The notes under the pieces are model-generated. The model was not told where the DNA came from and ran no database searches. It saw nothing but the letters and a program-made list of their open reading frames with translations. A stretch of 37,767 bases of DNA from NCBI GenBank assembly GCA_022709405.1, contig JAKLIV010000016.1, forward strand, positions 1 through 37,767, in the 5' to 3' direction. A program made the translations under genes and the position numbers. This stretch comes from Spirochaetota bacterium. Lineage in GTDB: Bacteria > Spirochaetota > UBA4802 > UBA5550. This document shows, in pieces, positions 1,618 to 22,355 of this stretch (positions within the stretch are counted from its first letter, which is position 1; every line of letters begins with the position of its first letter).

Positions 1618-4600
1618 ATGGCATTCTCCCTGGGCGAATATCAAGATATATTTTTGGAAGAGGCTGATGAACAGCTCCAGGAGCTGAACCAGAACCTTCT
1701 TGAGCTGGAAAAGAATCCGGACAATATCGATATAATTAACAATATTTTCCGGGCAGCCCACTCACTGAAAAGTTCGGCCGCTTTCGTTGGACTCAACGAT
1801 TTAAGCGATCTCGCGCATAAGATGGAAAACCTGCTCCAGGGCATACGCGACAGAACCATGGCCGTGACTCCCGAGATCGTGGATGTCATTTTCAAGTGCT
1901 TCGACGAAATTAATTCGGTCATAGAAAGCGTCGCGGCCGGCGAAGAGCCGACCCAGGACCTCTCATGGATAATCGAAAGGATAAAGGCGGTCAGCGAAAA
2001 ATCCGGTTCCGGCGCTGCGCAGAAACAGCAGACCGAGGCCCCGGCCGAGGAGGACTCTTCGGCTGATATCCCGAAAACCGTGATCGGCCAGTCCGAAATT
2101 CAGGCCATTAAGCTGGGACTCGCCGAGGGAAAAAGCTGCAGCGAAATCACCGTTTTCATCGACAAGACCGCCCAGATGAAATGGGTGAAGGCCCAGCTGG
2201 TTCTTAGCAATCTTGCGCGCATCGGGACCATCGTATCCACGATACCCACCGCCCAGAACCTGACCGGCGACGAGATGAGCAATATATTCAAGGTGATAAT
2301 TCTTTCGCTTAAACCGGTTCAGGACATCAAAAACGCGTGCGATATCGACCTGATATACCGGATAGACATCAAGAACATCAGCTTCACGAAGAAGGACAAC
2401 AAATCGGTGCTGAAATTCAGCGGCGGTGAAACTTTTCTTGTAGGAGAGGAACTGAAGCCTGCAGAGGCCGCGCCGCCCAAGAAGGAGCAAAAGGCCGAGG
2501 CTCCCGCATTTTCCCCGTCTTATGCCGAACCGGACGAAGAATCCGACGATGACGACGAACGGGAACATGAGACCGCCCATGCGGGCAGGGCCGCAGAGCA
2601 TGATAAACGCAAAGTGCCTCCACTCAGGACGGTAAAGGTCAGCGTCGACAAACTTGACCAGCTTTTGAACAATGTCGGAGAGCTTGTCATAGCGAACTCG
2701 GGCTTTTACAAGCTCTACGAGGAGATACGCAAGCTCGGGGACGACAAATCCATAACGAACGAGTTCAAGAACCGGATGGAGCAGATGTCGAGGATCGCGA
2801 AGGACCTCCAGACCGGGATAATGAAAACCAGGATGGTGCCGATAGGCCAGGTATTTTCGCGCTTCAACCGGCTCGTGAGGGACCTCACTAAAGAGTTCGG
2901 GAAAAACATCGAGCTCCTCATCAAGGGCGAGGACACCGAGCTTGACAAGAAGGTCATCGACGCGATAGGCGAACCGCTTATGCACCTTATCCGCAATGCG
3001 GTCGACCATGGGATAGAGCCTCTCGAGGACCGTAAAAAGCTCGGTAAATCCGATATCGCCACGGTAAGCCTGAACGCATACCAGGGCGGCAACCAGATAT
3101 TCGTCGAAGTAAGCGACGACGGAAAGGGCCTCAACAGCGATATCATCAAGCGCAAGGCCATAGAAAAGGGTTTTATCACCCCGGAAATGCTCGCCAACAT
3201 GGACACGACGGACATTAACAACCTCATTTTTATCCCCGGTTTTTCTACGGCCACCAAAATTACCGATGTTTCGGGCCGCGGCGTGGGAATGAACGTGGTG
3301 AAAGAAATCGTGAACGAGCTGAACGGCAATGTGACGATTGAAACCGAGCCGGGCATGGGCACCCGCTTCGTGCTCGCGTTCCCGCTGACGCTGGCAATCA
3401 TCCCCGCGATCATGGTCAAGGTCAGAAACGAGATGTACGCGATACCGCTGTCCGATGTCATCGAGACGATCAAGATAGCCGAGTCCGACATAACGACGAT
3501 TGAAGGCCACGAGGTGATCAATCTGCGGGGCGAGATACTCTCGCTCCTGAGGCTCAACGAATTCGTAGGCGTGCCGAGCGCGCTGTTCAAGGAGCAGAAA
3601 ATGCCGGTTGTCGTCGTCGGTTTCGGCAACAGGAAAATCGGTCTCATCGTGGATTTTCTCGAAGGCAAGCAGGAGATCGTAATCAAGTCGCTCGAGCAGA
3701 ACTATATGACCGTCGACGGCCTCGCAGGAGCATCCATCCTCGGCGATGGAAGCATCTGCCTGATACTCGATATTTCTTCGATGATAAACAAGGTCATCAG
3801 CGACCAGGACAAACTGAAGCATTTCGACAAGGATTCCGTGTCGGTGCAGAAGGCTTCGGTCGAGACGATAACCCCGGAAGAGATGCAGACGGAACAACCG
3901 GCTAAACCCAAACCGTCATCCCTTGCTGAAAAACCCTCTGTCCCGGGATCGATTACGATTCTCACCGACGACACCGCAAAAACTCCGGCAGCCCCGGAAC
4001 CTCCGCCTTCAAAACCGCATCCCGCGTACGAGAAGGAGAAGGAGCGTGCGATTGAGTTCGAGGCGGGATCAATGACCGCAAGAAAGGAGGAATCGCTGTA
4101 TCAGAAAACCGCCCAGCCGGCGCCCGTAAAGCCGGCCACGCCAGAACCTTCGATCAAAGAGGAGAGCGCGGCAGGGGCGCCTCCGGCGTCATCTGCTCCA
4201 CCAAAGGATAAGGCCGCCCCGGCAGCGGAGAAACCGGCCGCAGCGCCCGTCGATGAATTCACTCCCGTCGAGGAGGAGTTCCCGGCCGGGACGAAAAGCG
4301 AGGACGAGATCAAACAGCAGGTCAGGGACACGTTAAGCGATTTTCGTCAGGAGCTGAAAGACAGAACCGACATCATCAAGACCGGATCTCCGGTAGACCA
4401 TATGCGCGAGGCCCTCGACCTGTCCAAGGAAGACATCAATGAGTTTCAGGTCATCGCGAACGTCGGCGCGACCAATTCGGCCGAATCCCTTTCAAAGATT
4501 CTGGGAAAGAGGATCGATCTTTCGATACCCGAGGTCACGGTCAAGCCCATCGAGGGCATACCCGATTTCCTTGGAGACATCAACAGCGTCTATATCGGGG

Positions 4601-5019
4601 TGATGCTTCCCATTCTCGGCGACGCCAGGGGCACTCTTCTGTTTATACTCAAAGAGGATGTGGGCTTCTCTCTGATAGACATGCTGTACGGAACCGGTAC
4701 GAGCCAGACCAGGGAAATGGACGAGGACGGTGAATCAGCGCTCAAGGAGATCACGAACATCATCGGCTCTTCGGTGATAAACGTTTTCGCCGAGAAATCC
4801 GGCCTGGTTATCAAGCCGAGCGTGCCGACCATCGTGCACGATTATATGCAGTCGGTCATAGATTCGATCCTCGTGATGCACAACATGACCAACGATTACG
4901 CGATCATCATGGACACCGCTTTCTATTTCGAGGATGACAACATAATCGGCAATCTGCTACTGCTTCCCGAGGCTGAATCGCTCAAAATTCTTGTTTCCCG
5001 TCTGAGGGCGCATGGCTGA
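1618..5019 (+). CDS. cheA: CheA histidine kinase with a C-terminal CheC-like phosphatase domain
   Basis: At 1133 residues this is far longer than the usual 650-750. Domains in order: HPt (1-105, phospho-acceptor His48 in AAHSLKSS), a P2-like CheY-binding domain (about 155-262), an acidic linker, the dimerisation helices (about 337-435), the GHKL ATPase (N-box HLIRNAVDHG around 456-465, DDGKG 500-504, GRGVGM 553-558, GMGTRF 579-584), and the CheW-like P5 domain (about 592-725). A Pro/Ala/Glu-rich linker (about 740-900) follows, and then about 200 residues resembling CheC (about 930-1130). CheC phosphatase sites follow [DS]xxxExxN: the second copy is intact (S1040, E1044, N1047), while the first is degenerate (N941, V945, N948). 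CheA phosphorylates CheY and CheB, and CheC removes phosphate from CheY, so kinase and phosphatase would sit in one chain. A GGAG lies 10 bp before the ATG. The stop overlaps cheB by 8 bp. Kinase identity is certain; CheC activity is inferred. Confidence 0.95.
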   Translation: MAFSLGEYQDIFLEEADEQLQELNQNLLELEKNPDNIDIINNIFRAAHSLKSSAAFVGLNDLSDLAHKMENLLQGIRDRTMAVTPEIVDVIFKCFDEINSVIESVAAGEEPTQDLSWIIERIKAVSEKSGSGAAQKQQTEAPAEEDSSADIPKTVIGQSEIQAIKLGLAEGKSCSEITVFIDKTAQMKWVKAQLVLSNLARIGTIVSTIPTAQNLTGDEMSNIFKVIILSLKPVQDIKNACDIDLIYRIDIKNISFTKKDNKSVLKFSGGETFLVGEELKPAEAAPPKKEQKAEAPAFSPSYAEPDEESDDDDEREHETAHAGRAAEHDKRKVPPLRTVKVSVDKLDQLLNNVGELVIANSGFYKLYEEIRKLGDDKSITNEFKNRMEQMSRIAKDLQTGIMKTRMVPIGQVFSRFNRLVRDLTKEFGKNIELLIKGEDTELDKKVIDAIGEPLMHLIRNAVDHGIEPLEDRKKLGKSDIATVSLNAYQGGNQIFVEVSDDGKGLNSDIIKRKAIEKGFITPEMLANMDTTDINNLIFIPGFSTATKITDVSGRGVGMNVVKEIVNELNGNVTIETEPGMGTRFVLAFPLTLAIIPAIMVKVRNEMYAIPLSDVIETIKIAESDITTIEGHEVINLRGEILSLLRLNEFVGVPSALFKEQKMPVVVVGFGNRKIGLIVDFLEGKQEIVIKSLEQNYMTVDGLAGASILGDGSICLILDISSMINKVISDQDKLKHFDKDSVSVQKASVETITPEEMQTEQPAKPKPSSLAEKPSVPGSITILTDDTAKTPAAPEPPPSKPHPAYEKEKERAIEFEAGSMTARKEESLYQKTAQPAPVKPATPEPSIKEESAAGAPPASSAPPKDKAAPAAEKPAAAPVDEFTPVEEEFPAGTKSEDEIKQQVRDTLSDFRQELKDRTDIIKTGSPVDHMREALDLSKEDINEFQVIANVGATNSAESLSKILGKRIDLSIPEVTVKPIEGIPDFLGDINSVYIGVMLPILGDARGTLLFILKEDVGFSLIDMLYGTGTSQTREMDEDGESALKEITNIIGSSVINVFAEKSGLVIKPSVPTIVHDYMQSVIDSILVMHNMTNDYAIIMDTAFYFEDDNIIGNLLLLPEAESLKILVSRLRAHG

Positions 5020-14861: not shown

Positions 14862-15310
14862 TGCCGCCTTCCAAAACCGTCAGGATACGCGTATGCGGGA
14901 TACTCGTCGAGAACGGCCGCCTGCTCCTGATTTCACATAAGAAGGATGGAGGTATTTACTGGCTTTTGCCCGGAGGGGGTGTAAACTACGGCGAATCGCT
15001 GGACCAGGCCCTTGTGCGGGAATTCATGGAGGAACTCAATATAGGCATCGCGATCGGACCGCTGGCCATGGTATGCGATTCCATCGATCCCGAGGGCGAG
15101 AGGCACGTGCTCAATATCTGTTTCAGGTGCACCTATGATTCGGGGGAATTTCGCATCGGCTCGGAGGAAAGGCTTCATGGATATTCCTTTTTCGACGCCG
15201 AAAGCCTCGGCGAACTGCCGATGTATCCCCCGCTGAATGGTCCACTGGTTTCGATATTGAATAATTCCAATAAAGAAATATATCTGGGTAGAATATGGCA
15301 GGACAAATAG
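14861..15310 (+). CDS. Nudix hydrolase
   Basis: A 149-residue single-domain Nudix protein. The box Gx5Ex7REUxEExGU is met by GGVNYGE, then seven residues, then REFMEELNI, with Asn replacing the last conserved Gly. Metal-binding glutamates are all present. Members hydrolyse nucleoside diphosphates linked to a variable group; the substrate cannot be read from sequence. The segment LISHKKDGGIYWLLPGGG resembles ADP-ribose or dNTP-type enzymes. The ATG at 14861 overlaps the rnc stop (TGATG), and a TTG at 14858 is an alternative. It overlaps aroB by 16 bp, so the three genes are coupled. Confidence 0.88.
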   Translation: MPPSKTVRIRVCGILVENGRLLLISHKKDGGIYWLLPGGGVNYGESLDQALVREFMEELNIGIAIGPLAMVCDSIDPEGERHVLNICFRCTYDSGEFRIGSEERLHGYSFFDAESLGELPMYPPLNGPLVSILNNSNKEIYLGRIWQDK

Positions 15311-16383
15311 ACAAAATATCGGTGAAGACCGGCAAAATTTCCCATGTGATCTATATCGGAAACCGGATACTCGATTCTCTATTTGAGAAGGACGAGATCA
15401 GGAACGCCGACAAGGTGGCGATTGTGGCAAGCTCGCGCGTTTTCGAGATTCATGAGCGGTATATACGCAGCGCCATTCAGCATATGAACGAGCCGGAAAT
15501 ATTCCTCATGGCCGACGGCGAAGAGAATAAGAATTACAGGTATGCCGAAATGTTTCTTGAGGATTTTCTGGCTAAAGGCCTCACGAGACAGTCGGTCGTC
15601 ATCGGGATTGGCGGCGGCGTCGTGGGGGATTTCGCCGGTTTCCTCGCCTCGATATATATGAGGGGCATCAGGGTGATACACGTGCCCACGACGCTTCTCG
15701 CGATGGTCGATTCCAGCATAGGGGGAAAGGTCGCGGTCAATCTTTCAGCCGGAAAAAACATCGTTGGCTCCTTCCATCAGCCTTCCATGGTGGTCACCGA
15801 TATATCCTTTCTGCACACCCTCGATGACGCCGAGTTCAAAAACGGCCTGGTCGAGGCGCTCAAGCACGGCCTGATCGGCGACAGGTCTTCGGTGCGGATT
15901 TTTGAAAGCAACGACACCGACTCGATACGGGACGACAAGGTCATCGCCCAGCTCATCACTCAGTCGGCTTCGTTCAAGGCCGCGGTCGTCGAGGCCGATG
16001 AGAAAGAAAGCGGAAGAAGGGCGATCCTAAACTACGGGCACACGATAGGCCACGCGATCGAGTCGCTTTCAGGTTACAAGGACATCACTCATGGCGAGGC
16101 GGTTGCTCTCGGGATGAAGGTCAAACTCGCTGTTTCGAAAAAGCTCGGGTGGCTCACCGACGACGATATAAAGCGTATAGGGGTCATTTTCAAGACATAT
16201 GATCTTGTAAGGAAGGACGTCTCATTCGCCCCTGATGAAATCATCGCACATATGCAGTACGATAAGAAGAACGCCGGCGGTAAATTCAACTTCGTGCTGT
16301 TGAAAGGCATCGGCAATCCCCTTTATAACCAGCAGATAGACGAAAAAGTGCTCTACGAAGTGCTCGAAGAGTCGTTCGGGTGA
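15295..16383 (+). CDS. aroB: 3-dehydroquinate synthase
   Basis: A 362-residue protein of the usual AroB length. NAD- and substrate-binding signatures are intact: GIGGGVVGDFAGFLASIYMRGI, VPTTLLAMVDSSIGGKVAVN, AGKNIVGSFHQP, and the zinc-ligand segment NYGHTIGHAIE with the later HGEAVALGM. It converts DAHP to 3-dehydroquinate, the second step of the shikimate pathway, feeding chorismate toward the PheA and TyrA encoded about 6 kb upstream. The GGxxGGK loop favours true AroB over 2-deoxy-scyllo-inosose or aminoDHQ synthases, though these relatives are similar. Confidence 0.93.
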   Translation: MAGQIDKISVKTGKISHVIYIGNRILDSLFEKDEIRNADKVAIVASSRVFEIHERYIRSAIQHMNEPEIFLMADGEENKNYRYAEMFLEDFLAKGLTRQSVVIGIGGGVVGDFAGFLASIYMRGIRVIHVPTTLLAMVDSSIGGKVAVNLSAGKNIVGSFHQPSMVVTDISFLHTLDDAEFKNGLVEALKHGLIGDRSSVRIFESNDTDSIRDDKVIAQLITQSASFKAAVVEADEKESGRRAILNYGHTIGHAIESLSGYKDITHGEAVALGMKVKLAVSKKLGWLTDDDIKRIGVIFKTYDLVRKDVSFAPDEIIAHMQYDKKNAGGKFNFVLLKGIGNPLYNQQIDEKVLYEVLEESFG

Positions 16384-16401
16384 CGGTCGCGGATAAGGGA
16401 A

Positions 16402-16743
16402 ATGCTTAACTACACCGTCAGAGAGAACAACGGCGTCAAGATCATAGATCTTTCGGGAACCCTGACGGCGCAGGACGAGGAAACGTTCAAATCCCTGGTG
16501 CAGCGCATCACCGAAAAGGAAAGCGTCATCATCAACCTTGAAAACATAACGCTCGTCAGCTCCTCGGGGCTGTCCTCGCTTGTCGATGTTTCGTTTTTCG
16601 CGAAAGAGCACGGGACCAGGGTCATTTACGTGTGGCCGAGCGACGATCTCATCCGCCTCGCCGAGGACATGGACGTGTACGCGTTCCTTCTTTTCGCCGG
16701 AAGCATAGAGGAAGGGCAGACCAAGATAAAGTATTTCACCTGA
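16402..16743 (+). CDS. STAS-domain anti-sigma factor antagonist-like protein
   Basis: A 113-residue single STAS domain. The segment ITLVSSSGLSSLVDV matches the SpoIIAA/RsbV phosphorylation loop (usual core D-S-S-G-L), with Ser54/Ser55 as candidate phospho-sites and Ser instead of the leading Asp. Such proteins bind GHKL-type anti-sigma kinases and release partners when dephosphorylated. No kinase or PP2C phosphatase partner is next to it. It starts 18 bp after aroB and is probably the last gene of that unit. It ends 20 bp from the convergent ABC ATPase. Confidence 0.85.
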   Translation: MLNYTVRENNGVKIIDLSGTLTAQDEETFKSLVQRITEKESVIINLENITLVSSSGLSSLVDVSFFAKEHGTRVIYVWPSDDLIRLAEDMDVYAFLLFAGSIEEGQTKIKYFT

Positions 16744-16763: not shown

Positions 16764-17537
16764 TCAGTTCTCGGGAAAAAAGTGCACCTCGGGCCTGCCG
16801 TTGAAGATGTTTTTCGACATGACCGCATCGACTCCGAAGTATCTCCTGACCGTTTCTGCCGTGATTATCGACGGCTTGCCCTCCTCGACAATCCTTCCCT
16901 GATAAATTACCGCGATCCTGTCGGACATCTGAGACGCGAAGTTGATGTCGCTGGTGCAGAAAAGTATGGCCGCATGAGCGCGCGCAGATATTTTCGCCAG
17001 GGTCCTGTGCAGGAGCCGGAGTGAATTCAGGTCAAGGAACCTGCCGGGCTCGTCCAGGACGATCGTGCGGGGCTCCCGTGTGAACGCGTGGGCAAGCAGG
17101 GTTAGAACAAGGTCGTTTTTACAGAGTTCGCCGATTTTTTCGCTGCTGGATCGTTCAATGCCCAGGTCGGCGATATAGGTTCCCGCAATTTCACGGTCCA
17201 CATCGGTAAGCGGCGAGAGAGGGCTCCTGCCGCAGACCCTGGACAGGACAACAAAATTCTCGAGGGTGTCCTCGATATTGAGCGGCGAGGCTCCGTTGAA
17301 AAACGAAACCGAGCGCTCCTTTTCCCTTTTGTTCATTTTTTTGATGTCGCGCCGGTCGAGCAGCACCGAGCCCCGGTAGCTTTTCAGACGTCCGGCCGCG
17401 GCAAGCAGAAGAGAGCTCTTTCCTGAGCCTGCAGGCCCGATGATTCCCACGATCTCGCCGTCCGCGCATGAGATGCTCGCGTCATCGAGCACCGTTTTTC
17501 CGCCGAAAGAAAGAGTTATGTTTGAAATTTCAACCAT
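16764..17537 (-). CDS. FecE/BtuD-like ABC ATPase with degenerate signature and switch motifs
   Basis: A 257-residue protein whose order of motifs, and especially its C-terminus (ETVRRYFGVDAVMSKN, then FNGRPEVHFFP), matches iron-siderophore/haem/cobalamin importer ATPases. Walker A is intact (GPAGSGKSS, 34-42), as is Walker B with the catalytic Glu (TIVLDEP, 158-164). However, the LSGGE signature reads LCKND (138-142), the H-loop histidine is Ser196 in CTSDIN, and the Q-loop Gln appears to be Asn81. An ABC dimer normally needs the signature to close on ATP, so classical transport is doubtful. The frame is uninterrupted. It lies 36 bp downstream of the permease gene in the same operon. Confidence 0.85.
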   Translation of the reverse strand: MVEISNITLSFGGKTVLDDASISCADGEIVGIIGPAGSGKSSLLLAAAGRLKSYRGSVLLDRRDIKKMNKREKERSVSFFNGASPLNIEDTLENFVVLSRVCGRSPLSPLTDVDREIAGTYIADLGIERSSSEKIGELCKNDLVLTLLAHAFTREPRTIVLDEPGRFLDLNSLRLLHRTLAKISARAHAAILFCTSDINFASQMSDRIAVIYQGRIVEEGKPSIITAETVRRYFGVDAVMSKNIFNGRPEVHFFPEN

Positions 17538-17573
17538 CAGGACGCCCGCCAGAAAAATGATTTTCCCCCGGAT

Positions 17574-18461
17574 TCATCGATAAATCCTCCCGCAGTTTCT
17601 TCGGTGAAAAGCGAAAAGCGCCTGGGTCGCAACCAGCGATACCGCGACAGCCCCGGCAGGGCAGAGATTCCGGCTTACTGAAGAGAGTATCAGCGCGAAA
17701 AGAACCGCCGCCGCCGTTGATTCGGCGAAGGCATACCGGCTTCTCGATGAAGCCATCAGGTAGTACGCAACGCCTCCGAAAACGCCGACAAGCGCGTATG
17801 AAATTGAAAGTGCGAGGGCCTTCCCGGCGATAAGAACGGCTTTTACTCCGGCATATTCGGCATACGGGGGACGGTAGTATTCGCGTCCGTGGGAATAAAG
17901 GACGAGTGTGTCCCGGGCCCGATATACGAACACCGCCGCGGCGGCAAGCAGCGCGACCATGGCGGCAGGGAAAAAAGTCCCGGTTTCGTGCAGCGCCCAT
18001 CCGGTCAGCCAGGTCGTGATGTCGGCCCGCGCCGCGCCTGCGCGCTGCAGATAAATCATGCCTGCCGCTATGGCTGCCATGACCGAAAGCAGCGCTCCCA
18101 TGACGGGAAACTCTCTCCGGTTTGATCCGGTTATGAATGAATTTGCCGTTTCGGCGGCAATGATCGCGGCAAGGGAGGCGGCCCAGACGAATAATCCGCC
18201 GAGACCGGCGCCGGCGCCTATCGCGTAAACGGCGATAAACGCCACGGCGGCGTTTCCGTTTTGAACGAAGTCGGAGTGCGAGTACGGATCGCAGAAATTG
18301 AGGAAAGAATAAATCCAGCCGAAACCCGCGCCGGTCAGCGCCAGCGCCAGAGTTGATACAGCCATTCCGAGGCGGATGGATGCGACGGCGCACACGATGA
18401 CGAGCGATATTCCCAGAAAAAGGTTTCTCGGATTGGCATTTTGTGCGGGTGTTTCGGTCAA
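17574..18461 (-). CDS. Divergent FecCD-like membrane permease
   Basis: A 295-residue, very hydrophobic protein with about eight or nine transmembrane helices. The N-terminal part (LALTGAGFGWIYSF, then NFCDPYSHSDF and GNAAVAF) lines up with the FecCD motif L-A-L-x-G-x-x-x-Q ... NPLAxP ... G-A, but most invariant residues are changed. WLTGWAL recalls the family's WLxGS, and the C-terminus (LICP-like NLCPAGAVAVSLVATQALFAF) recalls its P-x-G-x-x-T-x-x-x-G-x-P. It is slightly short for the family. The start is TTG at 18461, overlapping the upstream gene's stop as TTGA. No substrate-binding protein gene is adjacent. Assignment is by weak similarity plus the FecE-like gene next to it. Confidence 0.7.
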   Translation of the reverse strand: MTETPAQNANPRNLFLGISLVIVCAVASIRLGMAVSTLALALTGAGFGWIYSFLNFCDPYSHSDFVQNGNAAVAFIAVYAIGAGAGLGGLFVWAASLAAIIAAETANSFITGSNRREFPVMGALLSVMAAIAAGMIYLQRAGAARADITTWLTGWALHETGTFFPAAMVALLAAAAVFVYRARDTLVLYSHGREYYRPPYAEYAGVKAVLIAGKALALSISYALVGVFGGVAYYLMASSRSRYAFAESTAAAVLFALILSSVSRNLCPAGAVAVSLVATQALFAFHRRNCGRIYR

Positions 18462-20089
18462 TGCGGGTGCGAACCTCCATCGGGATGGTCCGGGGCGGAG
18501 TTCTCGGCCGGGGAGTGAACCGGCTCTTCGGGTCGGGCAGCCTCTTCGGATTGTTGCCGTGATTCGGCTTCTCTGGCCCTTTTCTCCTTCTCAATCTGGG
18601 CCTCGCGCTCCTTCTGGCGCCTTGTCTCTTCCTGGCGCCGCGCTTCCTCCTGCTGCCTGCGTTCCTGTTCTAAATTCGCGATTATGCGCGAGAGATGTGA
18701 ATCGGACCGGGCCTCCCTCGCGAATTCATCGTTCGACATCGCGCGCTCGATTATTTCGCGCGCCCTGTCGTCCCTGCCGCTTCTCGCGTAGGCCTTGCAC
18801 AGGACGGCCTGGTCCTTCGGCGCGAGAGAAATTTTTTCGAAGTGATCGATGGCCGCATCATACCTGCCGAGCTGGTAGCTCGAATGAGCGGCCATGAGAC
18901 GCAGATCATGTGTGATGGCGCCCGCTCTGGCCTGTCCGATGAAGTCGAGAGCCTTCTGATATTCCTTTTTTTCATAATATCCCGCGACGAGTATGGGGAT
19001 TATTCTCGCGTACCTGGCTTCATCGCCGTCCGCCTTCGCCAGGGAGTATACCCTGTCGAAATAGGAAAGGTAGCGCCAGTCTTTCCGGTTGTAGTAGATG
19101 CTGCCGATCTGGAAAAGGATAGCGGCGTTGTCCGGTTTCAGCGACTCCGCTTTCACCAGTATCTTCAGGGCCTCGTCGAATTTTTCCTGTTTTATCATGA
19201 CGGCCGCCTCGAGAAGCAGCGGATCGAGCGACGACGGCCTTATCTTGCGGGCCCTTTCGAGGTCGAGCTCGGCGTCGACAAGATCGCCGAGGTTGTAATT
19301 GCAGTTCGCCTTTTTTATGAGGATGTGGTATTCGGTGTCGTTGTCGTTGAGCCCGAACTCGTCGGCTTTCGAGTAATACTCGAGTGCGGAGGAATAGTAT
19401 TTTTTTTCGTAATAAATGTCTCCCATGATGAGCTGGACTTCAGAATAGAACGGTATGCGCTCCGCGATGTCGGAGAAATAACCGGATGCGTTGCCGATAT
19501 CGCCTTTTTTATAGTAGGCAAGGCCTATCTCGAATTTAGGCGCCAGAAACGAGCTGTCGCTCCTCAGCGCCTCCCTGAACAGTTCCTGCGCCCTTTCATG
19601 GTCTCCCCTCTCTTTCGCGTCCATTCCCTCTTTGTATTTTGCGATCGCTTCGTTGTCGTCGGTCCAGAGGTACTTGTTGATGATTCCTTCCATTTTCGTG
19701 CGGGCGCCTTCATCCCTCAGCGCATGCCACATTTCCTTGCAGGCGACCATGAGCGCTGCATAGTCCCCCCTCTGTTCGGTCAGGATGATCACGTTCCAGT
19801 AGGCGTTTCGCTTGTATTTTCTGGTGGTCGAGGGAACGGCGATCGCCTTTCTGAAATGGTCCTCGGCCGCCGGATAGTTTTCCTGCATTTTCTCGATTTC
19901 ACCGAGGAAATAATACGAATCCCCGTGGTCGCCTTTTTCGACCTGCTTGAGGAACATCTCCCTGGCCTTGTCGTATTTTTTGTATATGTAGTATTTTTTG
20001 CCTTCGTCGAAGTACCCGGCATTTGCGGCATAAGGCCCGATCAACGAGATAATGAGGAGAAATAAAAGGAATAAGGACGGTTTTTTCAT
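18458..20089 (-). CDS. Secreted TPR-repeat protein with charged C-terminal helix and His-containing tail
   Basis: A 543-residue protein. A signal peptide (1-24, cleavage after A-N-A) predicts export. From about 25 to 445 come eleven or so TPR-like helix pairs, for example DSYYFLGEIEKMQENYPAAEDHF, APKFEIGLAYYKKGDIGNAS and NAAILFQIGSIYYNRKDW. Residues about 455-520 are a highly charged Glu/Arg/Gln helix, probably a coiled coil, and the protein ends in a Pro/His/Asp tail (HPDGGSHPH). It probably acts as a periplasmic scaffold. It is the first gene of an operon with the degenerate permease/ATPase pair, occupying the place where a binding protein would be expected. A good promoter lies just upstream. 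Confidence 0.85.
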   Translation of the reverse strand: MKKPSLFLLFLLIISLIGPYAANAGYFDEGKKYYIYKKYDKAREMFLKQVEKGDHGDSYYFLGEIEKMQENYPAAEDHFRKAIAVPSTTRKYKRNAYWNVIILTEQRGDYAALMVACKEMWHALRDEGARTKMEGIINKYLWTDDNEAIAKYKEGMDAKERGDHERAQELFREALRSDSSFLAPKFEIGLAYYKKGDIGNASGYFSDIAERIPFYSEVQLIMGDIYYEKKYYSSALEYYSKADEFGLNDNDTEYHILIKKANCNYNLGDLVDAELDLERARKIRPSSLDPLLLEAAVMIKQEKFDEALKILVKAESLKPDNAAILFQIGSIYYNRKDWRYLSYFDRVYSLAKADGDEARYARIIPILVAGYYEKKEYQKALDFIGQARAGAITHDLRLMAAHSSYQLGRYDAAIDHFEKISLAPKDQAVLCKAYARSGRDDRAREIIERAMSNDEFAREARSDSHLSRIIANLEQERRQQEEARRQEETRRQKEREAQIEKEKRAREAESRQQSEEAARPEEPVHSPAENSAPDHPDGGSHPH

Positions 20090-20119
20090 TGTTTTAGCGC
20101 ACAGGTAAAAGATTAAGTA

Positions 20120-20148
20120 GTTACAGCCCCGTCGGCGCTTTTTGTCAA
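20120..20148 (-). promoter_or_regulatory. sigma70-type promoter for the TPR-permease-ATPase operon
   Basis: On the minus strand, TTGACA (20148-20143), 17 bp, then TGTAAC (20125-20120), with an AT-rich stretch upstream. The start is predicted near 20113, giving a leader of about 24 bases. It is back to back with the murJ promoter. Confidence 0.65.
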
Positions 20149-20169
20149 GATAATTTGGATTATTTATGT

Positions 20170-20198
20170 TTGACTCGCCGGTCTTCGTCGGCCATACT
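20170..20198 (+). promoter_or_regulatory. possible promoter for murJ
   Basis: TTGACT (20170-20175), 17 bp, CATACT (20193-20198). The predicted start near 20205 leaves only about 10 bases before the GTG, just enough for the GGAGGAG ribosome site at 20207-20213. Confidence 0.5.
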
Positions 20199-20215
20199 GT
20201 TGCGCCGGAGGAGCC

Positions 20216-21808
20216 GTGTCTTCAATAATGAAATCGACCCTTATCGTGGCGCTGTCGACCATGACGAGCAGGATTCTCGGATTCGTCAGGGAGGCTCTTT
20301 TTGCGGCTTTTTTCGGCGCCACGGGGATCACCGACGCCTTTTTCATCGCGTTCAGGATCCCGAACCTTTTCAGGAGACTGGTGACCGAAGGGGCTCTTTC
20401 GGTTTCTTTCATCCCTGTCTACACCGAAACAAGGATCAAGCGCGGAGAGGGCGAGGCCCTTGAACTCGCGCAGAAGACATTCACTCTCCTTTTATCGGCA
20501 ACCGCAGCCATCGTTCTCGCAGGAGTCGTTTTTTCCCCGGAAATCGCGGGGCTGATGGGCTGGGGGATCGACGATCCGTTTGTCCTTGGAACCGCGGCTC
20601 GCCTGAACCGGATGCTGTTCCCTTTTCTTCTCTCCGCGGTGTTTGTCGCATTCTCGATGGGGGTGCTCAATTCGCACGGATTTTTTTTCGCGCCGTCGTT
20701 CGCGACGGTGCTGCTCAACGCGGGCATCATCTCAGGCATACTCGTCTCGGTGAGTTTCATGGCCGAACCGATCTACGGCGTGGCCGCAGGGCTGCTCGGC
20801 GGGGCGGTGCTCCAGTGCCTGATCCAGGTCCCCTATCTCGCGAAGTCGGGCTTCAGAATGAAGTTCTCCCCCGACACCGCCCACCCGGGGGTGAGAAAGA
20901 TATTTTCGCTGGCGCTTCCCTCCCTCCTGGGAATCGCGGTCTACCAGGTGAACATTCTCGTCAGCACCGTCATGGCTTCCAGGCTCACCCGGGGCAGCAT
21001 ATCTTACCTGTATTACTCCGACAGGCTCACGGAGCTGGTGCTCGGGGTGTTCATAATGTCGATCGGAAATGTAATCCTTCCCGAGATGTCGAGGCTGTCC
21101 GCATCGAGCGAGATCGGCAGGATCAGGTCGCTGTATGCTTCGTCGATACGCGCCTCCCTGTTCCTTGCGGTTCCCGCCATGGCCGCCCTGGCGGCGGTCG
21201 GATACCCGGTGATTTCGGTTCTGTTCATGAGGGGGAGCTTCGGTCCGGAAGATGCGCGAATGACATACCGCGCACTGGTTTTTTCGTGCCTGGGACTCGC
21301 GCCGATAGCGGTGCTCAGGATCGCCGCCCCAACTTTCTATTCGCTCAGCGACACGCGCAGTCCCGCCATCGCGGCCGCCGTCTCCTTTATCGTGAATATT
21401 GCGGCCGGCTGGCTTCTTATGGGGTCCTCGCTGAAACACGGCGGTCTTGCCCTCGCCAACTCGATTTCCGTAACGGTTCAGATGGTCCTTCTTCAGCTGT
21501 GGCTCAGGAAAAAAATCGGCGCGATCGGGGCCAGGGATATTCTTCTCCCCCTTGCGAAGTATGCCGCGGCGGCGGCGCTCATGGCGTGCTCGACAGCGCT
21601 GATCGCGTCGTTTTTCGACTGGACCTCGGGCTCTTTCGGTTCAAGGGCGCTGGGGCTTTTCCTGATCGTTTCGGCGGGAATGCTCGTGTATTTTCTGGCC
21701 TGTCTGGCCATGGGAACAGGGGAGGTGGATTATCTGCTCGGAAAACTGAAAAAAAAATGGAGGATTGACCGGGGCGGGGACTTGACCGGGCGTGGGAAAC
21801 GGCTATAA
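20216..21808 (+). CDS. murJ: MurJ (MviN) lipid II flippase
   Basis: A 530-residue polytopic protein with about fourteen transmembrane helices, of the MOP superfamily. The family signature is at the N-terminus: TMTSRILGFVREALFAAFFGATGITDAFF, then FRIPNLFRRLVTEGALSVSFIPVY, which includes the central-cavity arginines. It moves lipid II across the inner membrane for peptidoglycan synthesis. The start codon is GTG with GGAGGAG immediately upstream; an ATG four codons later is possible. It is divergent from the TPR operon and followed after 46 bp by a cheW gene on the same strand, which is functionally unrelated but probably cotranscribed. Confidence 0.95.
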   Translation: MSSIMKSTLIVALSTMTSRILGFVREALFAAFFGATGITDAFFIAFRIPNLFRRLVTEGALSVSFIPVYTETRIKRGEGEALELAQKTFTLLLSATAAIVLAGVVFSPEIAGLMGWGIDDPFVLGTAARLNRMLFPFLLSAVFVAFSMGVLNSHGFFFAPSFATVLLNAGIISGILVSVSFMAEPIYGVAAGLLGGAVLQCLIQVPYLAKSGFRMKFSPDTAHPGVRKIFSLALPSLLGIAVYQVNILVSTVMASRLTRGSISYLYYSDRLTELVLGVFIMSIGNVILPEMSRLSASSEIGRIRSLYASSIRASLFLAVPAMAALAAVGYPVISVLFMRGSFGPEDARMTYRALVFSCLGLAPIAVLRIAAPTFYSLSDTRSPAIAAAVSFIVNIAAGWLLMGSSLKHGGLALANSISVTVQMVLLQLWLRKKIGAIGARDILLPLAKYAAAAALMACSTALIASFFDWTSGSFGSRALGLFLIVSAGMLVYFLACLAMGTGEVDYLLGKLKKKWRIDRGGDLTGRGKRL

Positions 21809-21854
21809 TGGAGCATGAGCAGCGAAACCGCTTCAAAATGCGTCGAGGATTAGC

Positions 21855-22355
21855 ATGAAAAATGAAAAAATCGTTCCGCAGACGCAGCTTGATGAGCAGT
21901 CCGCCGAAGAAACCGAACAGTTCGTGACCTTCATGATCGGTAACGAACGGTACGGAGTGGATATCCTCAAGGTGCGCGACATCATCGATATGGTCGAAAT
22001 CACCCAGGTGCCGCGCAGCCCGGCCTGCCTGAAAGGAGTCATCAATCTCAGGGGCAAGATCGTTCCCGTCGTCGATCTTCGCCTGAAGTTCCGCATGCCC
22101 GAGATTCCCTATACCGGCGTAACCGTGATCATCGTGGTGGAGGTGAGATCGAAATTGATCGGGATGATCGTCGATTCGGTCTCGGATGTCGTCGATGTGG
22201 CGGTTTCAACAATCGATCACGGCAGCTACTTCAGAACCGGCATACGCGACGAATTCGTGAGCGGTGTCGGCAAGCACGACGAAGGCCTGATCATCATACT
22301 TGATGTCGAAAAGATACTGCAACCGGAAGACCGGTGCTCCCAGGAAAAGAGCTGA
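21855..22355 (+). CDS. cheW: Second CheW-family coupling protein
   Basis: A 166-residue single CheW domain with a short Glu/Gln-rich leader. Visible features are QFVTFMIGNERYGVDILKVRDII, VEITQVPRSPACLKGVINLRG, KIVPVVDLRLKF, and a late LIGMIVDSVSDVVDV. It is clearly a paralogue of the product of 1044-1586 but not a recent duplicate, since the sequences differ along most of the length. It may couple different receptors to the same CheA. It lies downstream of murJ on the same strand and ends 16 bp from the convergent HAD gene. Confidence 0.93.
   Translation: MKNEKIVPQTQLDEQSAEETEQFVTFMIGNERYGVDILKVRDIIDMVEITQVPRSPACLKGVINLRGKIVPVVDLRLKFRMPEIPYTGVTVIIVVEVRSKLIGMIVDSVSDVVDVAVSTIDHGSYFRTGIRDEFVSGVGKHDEGLIIILDVEKILQPEDRCSQEKS

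Follow-up and report, generated by a model that had tools for sequence, protein, structure and literature searches.

A FecE-type ABC ATPase lacking most hydrolysis residues, its repeatedly lost FecCD-derived permease and an exported TPR protein in an order of Spirochaetota

What is the ATPase of an ATP-binding cassette (ABC) importer kept for when most residues of the hydrolysis cycle and, in some lineages, the membrane partner have been lost? This question is raised by three minus-strand genes of a Spirochaetota bacterium (GTDB lineage Bacteria; Spirochaetota; UBA4802; UBA5550; assembly GCA_022709405.1, 4.38 Mb). They lie at 16764-20089 of the stretch analysed here, 37,767 nucleotides (nt) of contig JAKLIV010000016.1, hereafter called the window, and code for an exported tetratricopeptide repeat (TPR) protein, a membrane protein and an ABC ATPase. 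A first-pass annotation made from the sequence letters had described three intact frames coupled by a TTGA overlap, and its frames and coordinates were right: the TPR stop codon overlaps the TTG start of the permease gene at 18458-18461, and a gap of 36 nt separates the permease and ATPase genes.

18458-20089, minus strand: exported TPR protein, 543 amino acids (open reading frame; Pfam TPR families)
17574-18461, minus strand: FecCD-derived membrane protein, 295 amino acids, about 10 transmembrane helices, TTG start (open reading frame; predicted fold)
16764-17537, minus strand: FecE/BtuD-type ABC ATPase, 257 amino acids (open reading frame; Pfam and NCBIfam)

The descent of the last two proteins from a FecCD/FecE pair is recognisable, yet the defining functional features of both families have failed in them.

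The ATPase across the order

The change in the ABC module is a trait of a whole Spirochaetota order and not of the window genome alone. A profile of the TPR protein (E 1e-30) matched 46 of the 392 sampled genomes of the phylum: all 46 sampled from the order (the own genome included) and none of the 346 outside it. The profile of the degenerate ATPase scored 228-365 bits in 44 of the 46 order genomes, the best match outside the order reaching 199 bits, and the remaining two, G043 and G045, have contigs that end within the ATPase gene or ahead of it. A scan of named-species genomes returned 39 loci, 37 of them at E 2e-60 or better; 36 of these strong loci come from metagenome-assembled genomes titled Spirochaetes, Spirochaetia, Spirochaetae or Spirochaetota and one from an entry titled uncultured bacterium, and the last two loci were weak matches (Bacteroidia, 2e-5; Thiotrichaceae, 1e-4). 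Because the genes are conserved across an order, the features of the locus exceed chance. For the gene-order comparison 45 relative loci were fetched; the sampled relatives include no other species of the genus of the window. A flagellar link was uninformative, as flagellin was found in 59 of 59 genomes.

The window ATPase matched Pfam ABC_tran with 60.2 bits (cut-off 25). Its top NCBIfam rows were F420-0, siderophore, corrinoid, heme and FecE ATPases, all below their cut-offs and with no equivalog cut-off reached, and a PDB sequence search with the ATPase profile returned general ABC proteins only. The motifs reported in the first-pass annotation were borne out: Walker A (GPAGSGKS) and Walker B (VLDEP, with the catalytic Glu present) are there, LCKND stands in place of LSGGE and Ser196 in place of the switch His. 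The Asn assigned to the Q-loop was misplaced, as the Gln of canonical FecE aligns with Gly82 and Asn81 is the neighbour of that residue, the Gln being lost either way.

The same losses were found throughout the family. Among 42 aligned ATPases (L082 and L042, cut by contig ends, were left out) the Gly and Lys of Walker A are present without exception and the Walker B Asp in 39, against a signature GG in two and a Q-loop Gln in one. The position of the catalytic Glu is occupied by N in 24, D in 10, S in four, E in two and A in two, and that of the switch His by N in 18, H in eight, S in seven, G in six, T in two and Q in one. Counting the four hydrolysis features together (Q-loop Gln, LSGG, catalytic Glu and switch His), 29 of the 42 keep none, 13 keep one and none keeps two. 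In contrast, 17 of 17 canonical FecE proteins of the same genomes, the Q-loop Gln included, have all four; these comparators were selected for having Walker A together with an L(S/T)GG pattern, which makes their signature count a matter of construction, while Gln, Glu and His were not selection criteria. With the roles of the motifs taken from PMC7756269, the retention of Walker A without the Gln, the signature, the Glu and the His predicts that the protein would bind ATP without the normal dimer-driven hydrolysis cycle. In three permease-less loci (L090, L091 and L093) the Walker B Asp is replaced by E, S and K, respectively, and Walker A is kept; these are the only members without that Asp.

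The 42 ATPases form one side of a branch with a support of 100/98 in a midpoint-rooted tree. Since the rooting against other paralogs is unsettled in such a tree, the FecE origin rests on three other results, namely paralog profile scores, in which FecE was nearest (127-180 bits vs 77-117 for the others), the fold of the permease, and the C-terminal tail:

16773-16817, minus strand: ATPase C-terminal tail SKNIFNGRPEVHFFP, residues 241-255, conserved in the family (alignment to canonical FecE)

The tail, with the consensus R/K-N-I-Y-N-G-x-P-E-x-H, is the counterpart of ENPITxRP in canonical FecE, and its conservation exceeds that of the catalytic motifs. The protein thus resembles the FecE/BtuD/HmuV ATPases in its NCBIfam scores, the best among the families listed, and in Walker A, the D-loop region, the DLN segment and the xRP tail, but differs from them by the loss of the Q-loop Gln, LSGGE, the switch His and usually the catalytic Glu.

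The membrane protein and its losses

The window permease matched no Pfam or NCBIfam family, and three of the 30 members of the permease family matched the Pfam FecCD model (PF01032) at E up to 1 (L094 and L042, cut by contig ends, were left out of the alignment); the operon permeases of G023 and G040 exceeded the Pfam cut-off in a genome search. An AlphaFold2 model built from the 30 sequences (predicted local distance difference test, pLDDT, 88.6) matched HmuU (Z 24.9, 276 residues), BtuC (Z 23.3, 286 residues) and other type II permeases, and Foldseek returned 2nq2 at E 2.5e-5. The family profile aligned with 18 canonical FecCD permeases (20 regions were fetched, and L217 and L218 were left out) over 228 columns with E 2.7e-7 and a probability of 93. 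A PDB sequence search with the permease profile gave nothing beyond three chance rows.

The FecCD outline with most invariants lost, as first described, was confirmed by column counts. Of the 32 columns invariant in FecCD, 27 could be aligned globally, and eight of these were kept in at least half of the 30 members; they are eight of the 13 alignable Gly and none of the 14 alignable non-Gly columns, the lost invariants including Arg, Pro, Gln, Asn, His and Asp. Column entropy was lowest in the loop between transmembrane helices (TM) 2 and 3, in a segment that aligns with the LDIISxGxxFAxxLG segment of FecCD, and in TM7. The sidedness of the loops would follow from the BtuC fold of the model.

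18249-18293, minus strand: permease residues 57-71, predicted cytoplasmic TM2-TM3 loop, consensus DYxxSGEAA (column entropy; BtuC-like topology)
17856-17915, minus strand: permease residues 183-202, coupling-helix region, consensus ELxLxSxGxxYxxxxG (profile alignment; conservation)

The permease therefore keeps the fold and the surface that would face the ATPase but not the functional residues of FecCD. It shares with the FecCD/BtuC/HmuU permeases a fold over 276-287 residues, the glycine skeleton and the motif of the coupling region, and differs from them in that the family model fails to match the window protein and the majority of relatives, and in the loss of the non-Gly invariants. In one genus the proteins at the permease position (L109:4617-5399 and L110:4085-4855; 256-260 amino acids) are nearly without family motifs and the ATPases lie on a long branch; these proteins may represent a further replacement.

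The ATPase gene was found downstream of the TPR gene in 42 of the 42 relative loci whose contig extends far enough (the contigs of L094, L112 and L042 end before it). The three-gene order, which the first-pass annotation had proposed to look for in related genomes, is present in 29 of these 42, and the permease is absent from the other 13. Counted over all 45 relatives, the permease is present in 30 (partial in L094), missing in 13 and not assessable in two; with the window added, it is present in 31 and absent in 13 of 44 assessable loci. Where it is absent, the distance from the TPR gene to the ATPase gene is -46 to 122 nt; in L114 the latter comes directly after a broken TPR frame. On the TPR tree (built without L114) the absences require five changes, three of which are forced by starred branches. 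A search of the 13 permease-less genomes with the family profile revealed no copy of the permease at another site; the weak matches in G001 and G024 fall on canonical FecCD genes and were rejected as candidates. Three of the permease-less genomes, G005 (95% complete), G012 (94%) and G013 (73%), have as their best FecCD match E 2.5e-4, E 6.2e-6 and none, respectively. An ATPase that is kept where the permease is gone cannot serve solely to drive that permease. Given the several losses of the membrane part, each with the ATPase and TPR genes retained, the ATPase-like protein must have work that is independent of this permease. Of the first description, a degenerate FecCD/FecE pair that is maintained was supported, but the label of a repurposed transporter is too narrow.

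Selection, the TPR protein and neighbouring genes

Nonsynonymous to synonymous rate ratios (dN/dS) were calculated by the pairwise Nei-Gojobori method for 14 pairs of relatives, some of which share species and none of which is close to the window species; the estimate saturates in the wider pairs. The values were 0.055-0.201 for the TPR gene (13 finite values), 0.145-0.294 for the permease gene (11 pairs) and 0.093-0.250 for the ATPase gene (13 pairs), and their ranges overlap those of the flanking genes for the STAS-domain protein (0.014-0.180), aroB (0.123-0.278) and murJ (0.083-0.210). All three operon genes are thus under purifying selection, the permease being the least constrained. The claim that the operon is maintained was upheld by these values, all far below 1, and neither of the outcomes set beforehand as contrary to it, canonical motifs in relatives accompanied by decay or a gene order that is not conserved, occurred. 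Simple decay was rejected at the level of the order on the strength of these low ratios for every gene of the operon, with order-wide presence and Walker A in 42 of 42 pointing the same way.

The TPR protein begins with a signal peptide (MKK...AANA|G), and signal-peptide-like N-termini are general among the relatives whose N-termini are complete. A Pfam scan matched TPR families, and the AlphaFold2 model (pLDDT 91.2) shows a TPR superhelix that extends to about residue 462, followed by one long helix at 464-516 and a disordered, variable tail, in agreement with the exported TPR/coiled-coil protein first annotated. A fold search with the model returned generic TPR proteins only, and the fold suggests a putative scaffold. 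The His-containing tail noted in the window is literally there, but tails differ among relatives and His is rare in them, so a functional His tail was rejected. The supposed replacement of the usual binding protein by this large TPR superhelix found no support, and no binding-protein gene was found among the three genes and the flanking aroB, STAS, murJ and cheW, the rest of the genome not having been searched for one. The TPR gene carries an internal stop in L107 (G006) and is in pieces in L114 (G016), with the ATPase intact in both, through assembly error or local decay; these two and L098 were left out of the TPR alignment as partial or broken, and so was L042, whose contig ends inside the gene.

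The three-gene block is flanked by aroB-STAS (15295-16743, plus strand) and by murJ-cheW (20216-22355, plus strand). Two neighbouring features are of relevance:

16402-16743, plus strand: STAS-domain protein, convergent with the ATPase gene (Pfam STAS; neighbour tally)
20090-20215, no strand: intergenic region common to the TPR gene and the divergent murJ, with a minus-strand TTGACA-17-TGTAAC (sequence reading)

The good promoter claimed for the operon stood in part: read by eye, the candidate upstream of the TPR gene has a perfect TTGACA and a spacing of 17 nt but a weak TGTAAC (4/6), and a consensus promoter scan listed no minus-strand site in that region. The STAS gene adjoins the ATPase gene in 33 of 41 assessable relatives, including all 13 that lack the permease; 23 of 42 loci have aroB at a distance of up to 3.5 kb, and 26 of 42 have murJ upstream. 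In the region where the phospho-site is usually found, most STAS rows keep a Ser or a Thr. One locus (L075, in G002) is the only one with MurJ on the same strand just upstream, and no STAS or aroB match follows it. A second MurJ-family gene was observed in the window's genome (G000:C45:2423-3793) and in several relatives, and elsewhere in the window (1618-5019, plus strand) lies the gene for an unusual CheA of 1133 amino acids, which combines Hpt, P2, kinase and CheW domains with a CheC-like match at residues 1039-1073, near the C-terminus. Literature searches, in which subscription papers were mostly beyond coverage, returned no publication title describing a TPR-permease-ATPase operon.

Proposed role and rival explanations

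Considering these results, we favour, with modest confidence, the reading that the genes specify a domesticated, non-transporting, ATP-binding ABC module at the cell envelope, derived from a FecCD/FecE importer pair. The ancestor would have been a pair of this type (type II), and in this Spirochaetota order the ATPase would have turned into an ATP-binding protein without a normal hydrolysis cycle. It retains Walker A, but the sensing Gln, the switch His and the signature needed to close the ATP sandwich are lost, and most members lack the catalytic Glu as well. Its membrane partner would have retained the fold of BtuC/HmuU and, on the cytoplasmic side, a conserved surface on which the ATPase could dock in a putative complex, the FecCD residues beyond the glycine skeleton being gone. 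The exported TPR protein would probably act at this membrane site as a scaffold in the periplasm. The membrane protein would be dispensable in several lineages, where the ATP-bound protein would work from the cytoplasm, alone or with another partner. FtsEX-type mechanotransmission offers a parallel for an ABC pair that possibly acts on a periplasmic partner and carries no substrate, but the permease fold differs and FtsE is an active ATPase. A wider proposal, which we put forward only tentatively, is that this is an order-wide ABC pseudo-ATPase that outlived its transporter, in which ATP binding without turnover could act as a signal or a structural clamp in a core envelope function together with the exported TPR scaffold and perhaps a STAS regulator.

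Several observations weigh against a non-transporting, ATP-binding module. The window ATPase has the Walker B Glu (one of the two among 42) and Asp occupies that position in 10 of 42, which makes residual hydrolysis possible, and the switch His is present in eight of 42; both ATP binding and the absence of hydrolysis are predictions read from motifs. Divergence in the permease is about 2.5-fold that in the TPR protein, and the role of the permease may accordingly be loose. The median ratio of ATPase to TPR divergence is 1.31 in permease-less loci (66 pairs) vs 1.03 in permease-bearing ones (351 pairs), and such faster relative drift of the ATPase is as expected if one contact was lost. Moreover, in permease-less lineages the TPR protein and the ATPase would occupy opposite sides of the membrane, and the contact between them is putative.

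The presence of the catalytic Glu in the window, the retained BtuC/HmuU fold and coupling region and the operon order in 29 of 42 relatives would also fit a module that is still an importer. In that case ATP binding, or slow hydrolysis by an altered chemistry, would power a narrow or slow import of some metal chelate or cofactor, and the TPR protein would stand in for a binding protein in delivering or gating the substrate. We regard this as unlikely, given the counts for signature GG (2/42), Q-loop Gln (1/42) and His (8/42), the lack of any of the 14 alignable non-Gly FecCD invariants, the lack of a binding-protein gene among the three genes or their immediate flanks, and the loss of the permease with retention of the ATPase in 13 of 44 assessable loci. 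Dead ABC sites are usually paired with a working site. An asymmetric transporter built on this principle would resemble the heterodimeric ABC exporters, the degenerate ATPase being joined to a canonical one of FecE type from another locus. It is improbable, because the degenerate protein would spoil both sites, its own by the lack of Gln and mostly of Glu and His and that of the partner by the broken signature; in addition, G005, G012 and G013 retain the ATPase though they have no strong FecCD match. Canonical FecE genes are nonetheless found in many genomes of the order, including that of the window (G000:C108), and the joint change of catalytic Glu and His is a frequent degenerate-site pattern according to PMC7756269. 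The degenerate-site transporters ABCB11, TAP, Pdr5 and CFTR are similar in the loss of the catalytic Glu and the changes of the H-loop and signature, but they have one canonical site per pair, whereas here all defects are in a single ATPase gene and the operon has no second one. In the nucleotide-binding site NBS1 of Pdr5, as given in PMC7756269, Glu is changed to Asn and the Walker A lysine is lost, in contrast to the intact Walker A of the order.

Linkage to the STAS gene in 33 of 41 relatives and in all 13 permease-less loci, together with the Ser or Thr that most STAS rows keep around the phospho-site, speaks for another explanation, by which the ATPase-like protein would be a cytoplasmic ATP-responsive regulator acting with its STAS neighbour as MlaF does with MlaB, the permease being a mere tether in the course of loss. 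The binding of an ABC ATPase by a STAS protein is known from MlaFB, according to PMC7367683, and by this analogy the STAS protein is a candidate partner of the ATPase, with linkage as the support. Linkage is at the same time the sole evidence for a shared partner, the STAS gene is on the other strand, no adjacent copy of it was found in eight of 41 loci, and STAS proteins are best known, from PMC7367683, for action on anti-sigma factors; we consider this explanation unlikely as a whole. The resemblance to MlaF-MlaB consists of the adjoining STAS and ATPase genes in most relatives; PMC7367683 places MlaF in the MlaFEDB lipid-trafficking ABC complex, whereas here the STAS gene is convergent and the binding is putative. 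Ordinary decay of a duplicated importer operon is hardly credible for the order, where the genes are present throughout, almost every genome has them in unbroken frames, dN/dS lies far below 1 for all three and Walker A is found in 42 of 42, but it could still hold for single lineages, as the permease evolves fast and was repeatedly lost and the TPR frames are broken in two assemblies (G006 and G016).

On the reading of a domesticated ABC module, the finding is of a lone bacterial ATPase gene that has lost nearly all hydrolysis residues and kept Walker A without exception, in every sampled genome of the order whose contig reaches it. The repeated loss of the permease separates a nucleotide-binding role from transport and offers a natural experiment on an ABC domain that would act by ATP binding alone. 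For a large lineage of uncultured spirochaetes, the locus thereby points to an envelope function that is apparently core and has yet to be characterised.

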